Assembly: GCA_011389735.1 (NCBI GenBank)
Contig: JAABTS010000030.1
Location: 1 to 43,069, forward strand
Reading direction: 5' to 3'
DNA: 43,069 bases
Source of the DNA: Desulfobacteraceae bacterium
GTDB taxonomy: Bacteria; Desulfobacterota; Desulfobacteria; Desulfobacterales; JAABTS01
Each line of letters starts with the position of its first letter. The stretch's first letter is position 1. Shown piece by piece: positions 17,736-42,483 of this stretch. Under the pieces are notes generated by a model that worked only from the letters and a program-made list of their open reading frames with translations, was not told the origin of the DNA and did not search any database. A program made the position numbers and the translations under genes.

Positions 17736-17947
17736 TATAGCTTTTCAGATAATTAATTTCACTGTGTTGTCGGCCCGGGGATATACGAATTTTATTATGT
17801 TGAATGTTGAATGTTGAAAGATGGATCCCCTCATTTAGCATTTAACATTTAACATTTAGCATTTGGCATTCAACGTTTGGCATTCAACATAAAATGCAAC
17901 AATCCCCGGCCTGCCGCCTTGTGAAATTTAATTCCTGAAAAACTATA
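17736..17947 (-). repeat. Family B palindromic repeat, copy B2, with inserted inner palindrome
   Basis: Outer arms run from TATAGCTTTTCAG at 17736 to CTGAAAAACTATA ending at 17947 and match the family B arms in reverse orientation. The loop is enlarged by about 90 bases (17799-17890). The insert holds repeats of GTTGAATGTTGAATGTTGAA on one side and CATTTAACATTTAACATT/CATTCAACAT on the other, itself an inverted repeat. The copy lies 24 bases after the radical SAM stop and could act as its terminator. Confidence 0.8.
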
Positions 17948-32147: not shown

Positions 32148-32252
32148 TATAGCTTTTCAGGAATTAAATTTCACAAGGCGGCAGGCCCGGGATAATACTA
32201 TTCGTATATCCCAGGCAGACGGCACATTAAAATTAATATGTGAAAAGCTATA
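32148..32252 (+). repeat. Family B palindromic repeat, copy B6
   Basis: A 105-bp copy from TATAGCTTTTCAGGAATTAA to GTGAAAAGCTATA. It has well-preserved left and core blocks (AAGGCGGCAGGCCCGGGATA, ATTCGTATATCCCAGGC) and a diverged right arm. It lies 26 bases upstream of cobT. Confidence 0.8.
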
Positions 32253-33358: not shown

Positions 33359-35359
33359 TCACCGGGTGATCACGTTCATCATGGGTTGTACTTCGGACCG
33401 GACGGTTTCTTTCATCAGTTCGGCGGTGGACATGTCTTCCATGACGGAATCGATCCTGGCCCGGCCCAATTCATCCAAACCCGTGCCGATGATTTTGCCG
33501 GTTACCGGATGTTTCACCTGTTCCCCTATTTTGAACACAATTACCTTCATCCCTGTTTTGACCCGCAATTTCTTGCCGATATCCATGACAATCTTATCGC
33601 CTTTGACCTGAACAACGATTCCTTCGACTACAGGAAGTTTGTCGGATAATTTGAGATCGATCCCCCGGCCCAGAGTTCTGAGTAGATCGATATCCACGTT
33701 TTCTCCATAAAGATCCGCGGCCGCAAGGACTTCAGTCGTTTCCACGTCCACCAGACGCGCATAAATTTCAAGTGAATTGATTCGCTCCAGGATAGACCCG
33801 AACAGCATGCAATCGGCCGATAGAATTTTTCCGGCGTCAAGGGCTTTGCTTTCTTCCACAAGCCCGCTCTGGCTTAATTGCAATTCTTCCAAAATTTTTT
33901 TCAATTCCCGGCGGTTCACCACGGAAAAGCGGGAATGATCGATCATGGCGGATGTGACAATTTCTTCGATACCAAAACTCAGCTTTTTATCTTCTCCGAT
34001 AGTCTCCCGCTTAAAATTATCCACGGCGATCCGCAGCCGGGATTCGGTTTCATGAACCTTGAGGACGTCCCGCTTGATTCGCACCGGAAATTCAGAAACA
34101 TTACCGGCCATATCTTCGGCCCGGATCGTAATGATGTTTTCGCCTTTTTCAAGCCATGCAAGCCTGCTGAAATAGACGTTTTTTCCCTGTACCGGGCCGA
34201 TCGAAAGATCATTGATGGTCACCCGTTTAAGGCCGGCGTTGTCCCTGACGTTTGCTTCGATAATAGCCTGGTCAAGATAAGTGGTTCTTTCCGTTTCCAT
34301 GCCGCGAATTCGGACAACGGGAGCAATGGCGTCCGAAACTTCCGGATCGGTCTCGATTTGAACCGGCTTTTCCCCGGCTCCGGCCAGAGGAATGACGGCG
34401 GAAGTGGTATTTCCGACGGCGTCCTTTACCTTGATTTCCAGTTCCTTTCCGCCTGAAGGAATCGGAACGGTTTTGTCGATGACGAGTTCCTTTTTCGGTT
34501 CTACTGGAATTTTGTGACCGTTAATAAAGAGTTCCGTGATCTTTGAATCGTCAAACGCGCCGCCTTTTATTGCAACGCCTCCGGCGGTAATCGAGCCGCC
34601 TTCGACGGGCGAATCGATCCGAAGCCCGGGGCCCATCCGGTCGACATTGACACGCAATGTGTGTTCGGCGCTTTTCCCTGATAAATCGACCGCTTTAATA
34701 ATAATTTGATTTTCCCCGGGATCGACAGGAACATCGATGGAAAAAGGAATCTCCTCGTTGGAAACATCGATTCGAACCTCCAGCCCTCCGACGGTGATAC
34801 GACGTACAAACGTGTCGTCTTTGGCCAAACCGCTTATGTTGACCGTGAAATCTTTTGTGAGATGTCCTTCGACGGGGGCTCGGATAACGATTTGAGGCGC
34901 CCGTCGATCCAGGCCGTCGCGCTCGATAAGCGACTTTCTGGCTTTATCCAGATAAAACCGGGCTTTGGAAGATTGTTCCATGTTCAAAGAATCGTTCAAC
35001 TCCCTGACGGCCTCGTCGATCCGCCCCTGGCCGAAATAAACGACTCCAAGCTCCCGATGAGGGAAATAATCCGTGAAATGCAATCCGTAGGTTCGCGCCC
35101 GCCGCTGATCTTCAGGCCTCTGACGAATCGCCTCCAGAAGATCGAGTTCGGCTTCTTTTAAAAAGCCGCCGTCCGCAAACGAAAGGGCGCGTTCATAATA
35201 ATTCCACCATCGATGGCGAAACGCGCCCTTGACAACACCGTAAATCTCACCGTCTTTTTTTACCGGACCCCGTTTGGGAACCGTCCCGCAATCGGAAAGC
35301 CCGATTGAAACCGCCAACACAATTAAGCCGGCGCCCAAGGCGCGAAAAGACGACTCCAT
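33359..35359 (-). CDS. Exported TPR / Ig-like / CsgG-like protein with FlgT-C-like end
   Basis: This 666-residue protein has a signal-peptide-like start ending in a Cys (LSDC, Cys24), a possible though non-canonical lipoprotein site because Asp precedes the Cys. Helical TPR-like repeats follow (about 50-145). Several Ig-like or cadherin-like beta domains occupy 155-430. A CsgG/TolB-N-like domain lies at 440-560 (RIAVDNFKRETIGEDKKLS, SRFSVVNRRELKKILEELQLSQSGL). A small beta domain at 575-650 resembles the FlgT C-terminal domain (VVEGIVVQVKGDKIVMDIGKKLRVKTGMKVIVF). Probably periplasmic or outer-membrane. AAAGGAG lies five bases before the ATG. Confidence 0.75.
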   Translation of the reverse strand: MESSFRALGAGLIVLAVSIGLSDCGTVPKRGPVKKDGEIYGVVKGAFRHRWWNYYERALSFADGGFLKEAELDLLEAIRQRPEDQRRARTYGLHFTDYFPHRELGVVYFGQGRIDEAVRELNDSLNMEQSSKARFYLDKARKSLIERDGLDRRAPQIVIRAPVEGHLTKDFTVNISGLAKDDTFVRRITVGGLEVRIDVSNEEIPFSIDVPVDPGENQIIIKAVDLSGKSAEHTLRVNVDRMGPGLRIDSPVEGGSITAGGVAIKGGAFDDSKITELFINGHKIPVEPKKELVIDKTVPIPSGGKELEIKVKDAVGNTTSAVIPLAGAGEKPVQIETDPEVSDAIAPVVRIRGMETERTTYLDQAIIEANVRDNAGLKRVTINDLSIGPVQGKNVYFSRLAWLEKGENIITIRAEDMAGNVSEFPVRIKRDVLKVHETESRLRIAVDNFKRETIGEDKKLSFGIEEIVTSAMIDHSRFSVVNRRELKKILEELQLSQSGLVEESKALDAGKILSADCMLFGSILERINSLEIYARLVDVETTEVLAAADLYGENVDIDLLRTLGRGIDLKLSDKLPVVEGIVVQVKGDKIVMDIGKKLRVKTGMKVIVFKIGEQVKHPVTGKIIGTGLDELGRARIDSVMEDMSTAELMKETVRSEVQPMMNVITR

Positions 35360-35384
35360 AAACGCTCCTTTCCTTATTATTATA

Positions 35385-35490
35385 TATGGTTTTTCAGAAA
35401 TTACATTTCACAAGTCGGCAGATCCGGGATAATACGGTTGCTTATATCCCATCCGGCGGCGCAGTGAGTTTCGATTTCCGGAAGATGATA
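35385..35490 (+). repeat. Family B palindromic repeat, copy B7
   Basis: A 106-bp copy from TATGGTTTTTCAGAAATTAC to CGATTTCCGGAAGATGATA, with more base changes than most copies. It lies between the two exported proteins, so it would be transcribed if they form one operon. Confidence 0.75.
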
Positions 35491-35524
35491 GAAGCCCGTA
35501 TCGATAATCCCCCGACCGCCGGGA

Positions 35525-36655
35525 CTATTTCAAAGACAGATCCAGTTTTTCCGGAGCAAAGTCTTCTACAGAAAGCTTTGCGCCGCCAACGTCTTTTTGA
35601 TCCGTTGCTTCGGCCAGTTCCTCGCTAGTCCCCTTGTATCTCAAATTGAGAACCAGCAGACCGCCGGCTTTGTTCCAGCCTTCTTTTTTACATGACGCGA
35701 CTTTGCTCATTTCTTCGAGAAACCGGATGACCTGTTTGTATTCAGAGAACGATGTGACGCCGACCACGTTGACTTTCAGGGGCAGTCCATTGTTTAGAAA
35801 GTCCTGGAAAGACGCCAGAATGGCGTCTGCAATATAACCGTCCACCGCTTTTTCAGCCGCTTTTTGAAGCGCTTTCGCGGCGCCTTCGAGTTCGCTTATA
35901 TGAGCCGTTTTGCCTTTTTCCACCACCGCCCCCAGGATCGATCCGGACTGGCTGTGCATGATTTTGGCCTGCAAACTCGCACTCATGGTTTTAAATCCCG
36001 TATCCGCGATTACGACATCGCTCTTGTGAACAGTCGCTTTCCCGAGGACGACATATTGAGCGCCGAACATCATGCCGAGCGCTTTTGCGGCGTTTTCATT
36101 TCCCGCAAGCGCCTGTTTGGATTGCCCCATCTGATTGGCCGCCTCCACCTGGGCCTTATCGACGATCTCGAAGCCTTTTTTCTGGAGCAGGGAAATCATT
36201 TCAGTTTCCGCAAGCCGCATGCCTTCGATTTCAAGACCGCTGTAGTCTTCGTCGATCAGAACCATCAGCTTCGGCTTTTCAAGGCTTTCCAGAAGGATTT
36301 TCATGGCGATCAATCGGTCTTTGACTTTGTCCAACGAAATTTCGGATTTTATTTTGACGGTGTAAAAATCATCTTTTTTACTTTTTTCCAGGATTTCGAA
36401 ACCGGCGATAAATCCTTCCGTATGCGTAAAAATTTCGTCCTTCTGAACTTCGAAGTTTTTAATTTCGGTTTCCGACTGAACAAAGGTTCCGGCGCCTTGC
36501 TCAACGGCCGACCGCTGAGCGTCTCGAACGGCCGCATCGTAGGATACCGTGGACATGCCTTCCGTTACAATGGTTTTGTTTTCCGCCCATGCAAACGACG
36601 CCGATAAAAAACACACGAAAACCATTGCCGGCCATTTGACGAATAATGCTTTCAT
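35525..36655 (-). CDS. Exported FlgT-N/LPP20-like protein
   Basis: This 376-residue protein has a clear signal peptide (MKALFVKWPAMVFVCFLSASFAWA, cleavage after about residue 24). The next 85 residues match the FlgT N-terminal/LPP20-type fold (TEGMSTVSYDAAVRDAQRSAVEQGAGTFVQSETEI to FYTVKIKSEISLDKVKDRL). The middle (120-270) reads like a CsgG/FlgT-middle domain (LMVLIDEDYSGLEIEGM, FGAQYVVLGKATV). I chose ATG 36655 because AAAGGATT precedes it and the signal peptide begins there. A frame to 36850 would run into repeat B8. It is next to the CsgG-like gene on the same strand. Confidence 0.75.
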   Translation of the reverse strand: MKALFVKWPAMVFVCFLSASFAWAENKTIVTEGMSTVSYDAAVRDAQRSAVEQGAGTFVQSETEIKNFEVQKDEIFTHTEGFIAGFEILEKSKKDDFYTVKIKSEISLDKVKDRLIAMKILLESLEKPKLMVLIDEDYSGLEIEGMRLAETEMISLLQKKGFEIVDKAQVEAANQMGQSKQALAGNENAAKALGMMFGAQYVVLGKATVHKSDVVIADTGFKTMSASLQAKIMHSQSGSILGAVVEKGKTAHISELEGAAKALQKAAEKAVDGYIADAILASFQDFLNNGLPLKVNVVGVTSFSEYKQVIRFLEEMSKVASCKKEGWNKAGGLLVLNLRYKGTSEELAEATDQKDVGGAKLSVEDFAPEKLDLSLK

Positions 36656-42377: not shown

Positions 42378-42483
42378 TATAGGTTTTCAGGAATTAAATT
42401 TCACAAGGCGGCAGGCCTGGGATCATACTATTCGTATATCCCGGGCCGACAACACAGTGAAATTTGATTTCTGGAAGGCTATA
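42378..42483 (+). repeat. Family B palindromic repeat, copy B12 (well-preserved reference copy)
   Basis: A 106-bp copy starting TATAGGTTTTCAGGAATTAA and ending TTTGATTTCTGGAAGGCTATA, with core GGCCTGGGATCATACTATTC and GTATATCCCGGGCCGAC. The ends are TATAG and CTATA. It begins two bases after the methyltransferase stop codon, so it is well placed to act as that gene's terminator hairpin, though no T-run follows. Confidence 0.85.

Follow-up and report, generated by a model that had tools for sequence, protein, structure and literature searches.

FlgT of Vibrio is a part of the H-ring of the Na+-driven polar flagellum and is represented in the PDB by 3w1e and, within the LPHT ring, by 8z5n; its N-terminal (N), middle (M) and C-terminal (C) domains follow one another in a single polypeptide. 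The FlgP/LPP20 proteins, among them FlgP of the Campylobacter basal disk, form rings by means of a hairpin in an SHS2 domain. A hairpin at this position has been tied to ring formation in both FlgP and FlgT, according to a 2025 study of Campylobacter FlgP (PMC12222027). In the literature that was surveyed, FlgT-type rings are those around flagella. When FlgT and other accessory ring proteins were sought by sequence homology in the delta-proteobacteria none were found, as reported in a 2018 paper (PMC5758724). A literature search that lay mostly outside subscription journals, and did not include the FlgT structure paper, gave no account of a non-flagellar FlgT or of the gene pair described here.

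The pair is found in a Desulfobacteraceae bacterium. The window, i.e., the whole stretch of 43,069 nucleotides that was analyzed, is contig JAABTS010000030.1 (C206) of a 6.5-Mb draft genome (GCA_011389735.1). An earlier note on this DNA had seen FlgT-like domains divided over two adjacent exported proteins, and two open reading frames (ORFs) were found where it had placed them. P2 (35525..36655, minus strand, 376 amino acids) lies on the 5′ side of P1 (33359..35359, minus strand, 666 amino acids), with 165 bp between them. By predicted fold the two proteins resemble FlgT, FlgO and FlgP, and they may work like them; the family of P2 has no association with flagella.

Domains of P2 and P1

P2 begins with a Sec-type export signal, read by eye, which is followed by three domains (N-M-X). 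The first, at residues 27–107 (36335..36577, minus strand, as are all protein features below), is an SHS2 or FlgT_N-like domain. Against the Pfam model FlgT_N (PF16548) P2 alone scores E = 0.013 and 16.4 bits, under the cut-off of 28.8. The predicted model also assigns it to this type, and the dodecin core matches it over 59 residues with a root-mean-square deviation (rmsd) of 1.9. The second domain, at residues 126–289 (35789..36280), is by fold of the FlgT-middle, CsgG and TolB-N type, and the LpoB match of P2 alone (E = 4.6e-5) is over the Pfam cut-off. FlgT_M had no Pfam match on the window proteins or their aligned relatives, and this domain is recognized by structure only. Domain X, at residues 290–376 (35528..35788), is an additional C-terminal alpha/beta domain, conserved in alignments A1 and A2 and predicted with a local distance difference test score (pLDDT) of 87–93.

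Relatives of P2 were collected from 57 loci of named genomes. In 56 of these the homolog extends over most of the length of P2; the other, L124, has a partial match at a contig end and was excluded. Almost all of the named genomes with the nearest relatives belong to the Desulfobacterota; a Desulfococcaceae bacterium, at 59% identity, is the closest. In the P2 alignment of 61 proteins, FlgT_N is matched by 42 (E ≤ 1, best 1.2e-6), LpoB by 45 and CsgG by 12.

The P2 model, built from the 61 sequences, has a mean pLDDT of 78.5 and a predicted template modeling score of 0.56, and consists of a signal helix, the SHS2 domain, the M-type domain and the extra domain. A beta-hairpin insert is predicted at residues 57–79, between the SHS2 helix and the second strand. 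In a Foldseek search with this model FlgT headed the PDB matches (8z5n_0, 5.0e-9, then 3w1e, 1.1e-8). VIA-align placed P2 residues 27–282 onto residues 1–265 of 3w1e (Z 12.5, 204 residues, rmsd 9.2); on the M domain alone, TolB, PelC and others equaled FlgT.

P1 is exported and is probably an outer-membrane lipoprotein. Its lipobox is degenerate (LSDC); a lipobox-like pattern matches 12 of 19 relatives, not P1 of the window. A tetratricopeptide repeat (TPR)-like region occupies residues 47–145 (34925..35221), with a TPR_2 match at residues 101–126 (E = 2.8e-4, under the cut-off), and immunoglobulin (Ig)-like repeats occupy residues 155–430 (34070..34897), where Glucodextran_B matches three stretches (1.6e-18) and Big_13 and Big_7 match more weakly. 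A second M-type domain, of the CsgG/FlgO/LpoB/TolB-N fold, lies at residues 439–575 (33635..34045). P1 alone matches CsgG at 1.6e-12, over profile positions 7–99 and a second short piece, LpoB at 1.6e-6, and FlgO weakly at 0.025. The FlgT_C-like end is at residues 576–655 (33395..33634). FlgT_C (PF16538) gave nothing on P1 itself at E ≤ 1, and the pilus protein TsaP resembles residues 588–650 (E = 0.0018).

This end was recognized in the company of its relatives. Alignment A3 (n = 16) holds the C-terminal half of P1, 11 partner proteins encoded directly downstream of P2 relatives, and four CsgG lipoproteins trimmed to the CsgG domain. All 16 match CsgG, 15 match FlgO, and 11 match FlgT_C (best 6.7e-8); these 11 are the partners, i.e., every row that holds the region, P1 of the window excepted. 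The model of the C-terminal half, from the 16 sequences, has a pLDDT of 69.6, and the first two PDB matches found by Foldseek were again FlgT (8z5n_0 and 3w1e, 1.7e-10 and 1.8e-10). VIA-align placed model residues 13–228 onto residues 117–362 of 8z5n_0, over M and C (Z 10.3, 187 residues, rmsd 9.5); model residue 228, where the alignment ends, is P1 residue 652.

Thus the domain reading of the earlier note holds for both proteins: FlgT_N-like and FlgT-middle-like domains in P2, the latter by fold only, and TPR, Ig-like, CsgG-like and FlgT-C-like parts in P1. Profile searches sustained it through CsgG on P1 and through FlgT_N and FlgT_C among the relatives. The statement that the two proteins together contain the parts of FlgT is right in that N-, M- and C-type domains are all present. 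Since the pair has the composition N-M-X plus TPR-Ig-M′-C, with two M-type domains and X, it is not one FlgT cut in two.

Neighboring genes and distribution

A gene for a CsgG-domain protein adjoins the P2-family gene, or is fused to it, in half of the named loci (28/56). It is directly upstream in 15 (within 64 bp or overlapping), forms one chain with the P2 homolog in two, L090 and L093, and is directly downstream in 11 (within 101 bp). At other ORFs of the same loci, which were chosen by length and not by a gene finder, a CsgG-domain neighbor was present in only 11 of 374. The 11 downstream loci share the gene order of the window, and all of their partners have the M-C layout. P1 differs from them in that its family, which has TPR and Ig repeats, is present in many copies.

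P2 relatives were sorted by identity into bands, of which the closest and the middle are used here. In a tree of the 61 P2 proteins, the 27 middle-band loci form a clade (support 0.999), which holds the loci with a downstream partner. Of the closest band, 27 members group together (0.953) and the position of a 28th is unresolved. P2 of the window is sister to that of L068 (0.993), and the upstream and fused kinds group with it. Because the tree separates these kinds from the downstream kind, the window joins a P2 that falls in one group to the gene order seen in the other.

At E ≤ 1e-5, P2-type genes, mostly distant, are present in 107 of 146 genomes from the order; in a sample of 247 genomes from across the phylum, 38 have a match to the P2 profile (E ≤ 1e-40). 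The genes beside P2 relatives encode CHASE2-cyclases, FecR and OmpA-family proteins, a trypsin-like protease with LPP20 proteins, and a Slam-like barrel; these are mostly envelope-related, and none recurs in enough loci to point to a client. In one locus (L095, 6977–12192) a P2 relative is followed by an M-C partner, a trypsin-like protease and two LPP20-domain proteins, a set that recalls the FlgP and HtrA-like PflC parts of Campylobacter disks. Elsewhere in the genome of the window (L013, 3423–8635, contig C138) a FlgT_N-type protein, a TPR-CsgG protein and a CsgG-like protein with fibronectin III are encoded together.

The pair lies outside the flagellar cluster, as the earlier note had proposed. 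That cluster, with FlgI, is on contig C35, in 19 kb of which no FlgT-like gene was noticed, and in the stretches read the three FlgT_N-like genes of the genome all lie away from flagellar genes. The P2 family is not associated with flagella across genomes either. FlgI is present in 72 of the 146 genomes overall, in 7 of the 14 with a P2 of the closest band, in 11 of the 22 with one of the two closest bands, and in 51 of the 107 with any P2-like gene. Two genomes that are 97% and 100% complete (G022 and G023) have P2 and lack FlgI. Relatives are equally common in bacteria without a flagellum, and the pair therefore probably serves another, non-flagellar outer-membrane scaffold.

Most of the P2–P1 gap is occupied by copies of dispersed intergenic repeats of families D2, D4, D5 and D6 (35373..35490, no strand assigned). 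Allowing up to three mismatches, a 28-base core of the repeat has 242 copies in the genome and 0 in a reversed control. The repeat, 45–90 nt long, is present in the window at 239–283, 17737–17783, 32149–32195, 35391–35435, 42379–42425 and other positions. Four promoter-like and five terminator-like sites were found in a scan for operon evidence, which is uninformative because these counts are not above the means for shuffled sequence (5.1 and 6.3).

Paralogs of P1 in the same genome (L015 on C426, L016 on C74 and L017 on C153) are followed, by eye, by sigma-factor-like, anti-sigma-like and CHAT-type genes. In C426 the CHAT-type product ends in a CsgG/FlgT_C-like stretch; that in C153 matches FlgT_C in part (E = 0.0024), the only FlgT_C match across this genome. 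Relatives elsewhere combine CHAT, TPR and CsgG, one with a cyclase domain as well. FadL-like barrels are encoded near P1 relatives in L154 and L155, and large exported proteins with Peptidase_C13 and Ig-type domains in L154 and L015, one of them with a dockerin. A TPR-CsgG protein in L050 (2151–3779) has a C-terminal end that by eye resembles a Hint/intein-type domain.

A proposed non-flagellar scaffold and its alternatives

We favor, tentatively and with a probability of about 0.45, the reading that P2 and P1 belong to a FlgT-like, non-flagellar scaffold that lies beneath the outer membrane, with P2 polymerizing, a CsgG-type partner packed against it and P1 held by lipid. This location is preferred because the fold, the export signal and the neighboring genes point there. 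P1 would be lipid-anchored in the outer membrane, and P2 would polymerize laterally by way of the hairpin of its N domain, in the manner of FlgP and FlgT, to give a ring or an arc below that membrane. P2 and a CsgG/FlgO-type partner would pack together through their M-type domains, and P1, with its Ig stalk and TPRs, might tether or attract a client at the surface or in the envelope. Here P1 itself may be the partner of P2; another CsgG-type protein could equally serve. On the predicted structures, the outer-membrane ring suggested by the earlier note is plausible. It is rather doubtful that the Desulfobacterota as a group have a widespread non-flagellar envelope machine of this kind, in which an N-M-X ring protein works with separate or fused CsgG/FlgO-type M or M-C proteins and exchangeable TPR and Ig parts, and of which FlgT would be a late, fused member descended from an older outer-membrane ring family.

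Several observations weigh against a scaffold built from P2 and P1. Neither protein reaches the cut-off of any Pfam FlgT model. The P2 hairpin is predicted with low confidence (pLDDT about 44). For the P1 model TolB and LpoB outscore FlgT by Z on the M domain, and a FlgT-like relative placement of the domains is not demonstrated, because the two-domain rmsd values are high. In 28 of the 56 P2 loci, including that of the nearest relative, L068, there is no adjacent CsgG-domain gene, although some of these loci end at contig edges. The gap holds a repeat element, so that P2 and P1 may or may not be co-transcribed. Six other genomes have a strong P1 match together with a P2 of the close or middle band (G014, G022, G057, G073, G080 and G083), and in none are the two on one contig; in G057 and G014, which hold the best P1 relatives (54% identity), the P2 relatives are encoded elsewhere, on separate contigs. 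Twelve of 16 P1-family loci, including both at 54% identity, have a FadL-like gene no more than 5 kb away; these 16 regions were taken from the top part of the match list, two of them from one genome, and the FadL family was checked by Pfam on one member.

It is quite possible, at somewhat less than even odds, that the genes are neighbors by chance, P2 belonging to a FlgT-like family of its own and P1 to a multicopy lipoprotein family whose working partners are a FadL-like barrel and large secreted proteins. The FadL-like neighbors, the sigma-factor-like, anti-sigma-like and CHAT-type genes beside P1 paralogs, the separation of the two families in the six genomes and the repeat in the gap all favor this. 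Set against it are the M-C partners directly downstream, in the same order, in 11 of the 27 loci of a separate P2 clade, and the co-occurrence of strong P1 matches with the closest P2 band above expectation (6/14 against 24/146, Fisher p 0.013, uncorrected for relatedness). The conservation as neighbors that the earlier note looked to is seen for P2-family and CsgG-domain genes, and not for the exact pair; among the 24 genomes in which P1 is strongly matched, five lack any P2-like match. The pair itself may be a local arrangement, since P1 and P2 are on separate contigs in the six other genomes and the P1 family occurs near FadL-like or sigma/CHAT genes.

The other alternatives are far less probable. 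The two proteins might, like Lpo proteins, activate a peptidoglycan synthase, or be TolB-like partners at the cell wall: LpoB is over the Pfam cut-off in both, and among the matches of the P1 model TolB-N has the highest Z (13.4). These matches are limited to the M-type domain, leaving the N and C domains uncovered, and such a role is improbable. Membership in LpoB was rejected on the NCBIfam equivalog TIGR02722, against which the proteins score 27.6 and 27.4 bits, far from the cut-off of 110.55. Still less probable is a flagellar accessory ring equivalent to the H-ring. FlgT heads the Foldseek matches of both models and the genome does have its flagellar cluster with FlgI, but the FlgI counts, the FlgI-less G022 and G023 and the position of the FlgT_N-like genes all speak against it; as a general role it was rejected, the P2 family being present in FlgI-less genomes. 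Least probable is that P1 is a CsgG-type secretion pore. CsgG has two transmembrane beta-hairpins. The CsgG match of P1 (1.6e-12) is confined to part of the profile, and where CsgG would have its hairpins the loops that connect three strands of the P1 model are 2 and 5 residues long and leave no room for them. Long CsgG membrane hairpins are absent from both models, so that the secretion scaffold also offered by the earlier note is not upheld and a secretion channel is unlikely.

Comparison with known systems

TsaP, a secretin-associated LysM protein of type IV pili, resembles P1 in its C-terminal stretch; P1 has no LysM match and no secretin was noticed beside it. The FlgO/CsgG/LpoB/PelC/TolB-N fold group is represented by the M-type domains of both proteins. 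In contrast to this group, the membrane hairpins of CsgG are not predicted, and no curli, Pel or Tol genes were noticed among the neighbors read. P2 is predicted to have the SHS2 core of FlgP and LPP20 and, at low pLDDT, the hairpin insert; unlike them it has no lipobox, continues into the M and X domains, and is not at a flagellar locus.

If the scaffold reading is true, a flagellum-independent FlgT-like family spread over separate genes would mean that ring building can be separated from motility, and would suggest an origin of the H-ring that can be tested. It would further allow a guess at the role of unannotated envelope proteins in the 107 genomes of the order that have P2-type genes. 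The pair is not FlgT in the strict sense, because its domains are divided over two ORFs in place of one N-M-C chain, and neither a location beside flagellar genes nor co-occurrence with FlgI was found. Compared with FlgT of Vibrio, there are two genes, two M-type domains, domain X, the TPR and Ig additions, and no flagellar tie; the likeness, by fold and by the Pfam matches of the families, lies in the N-M part of P2 and the M-C part of P1.

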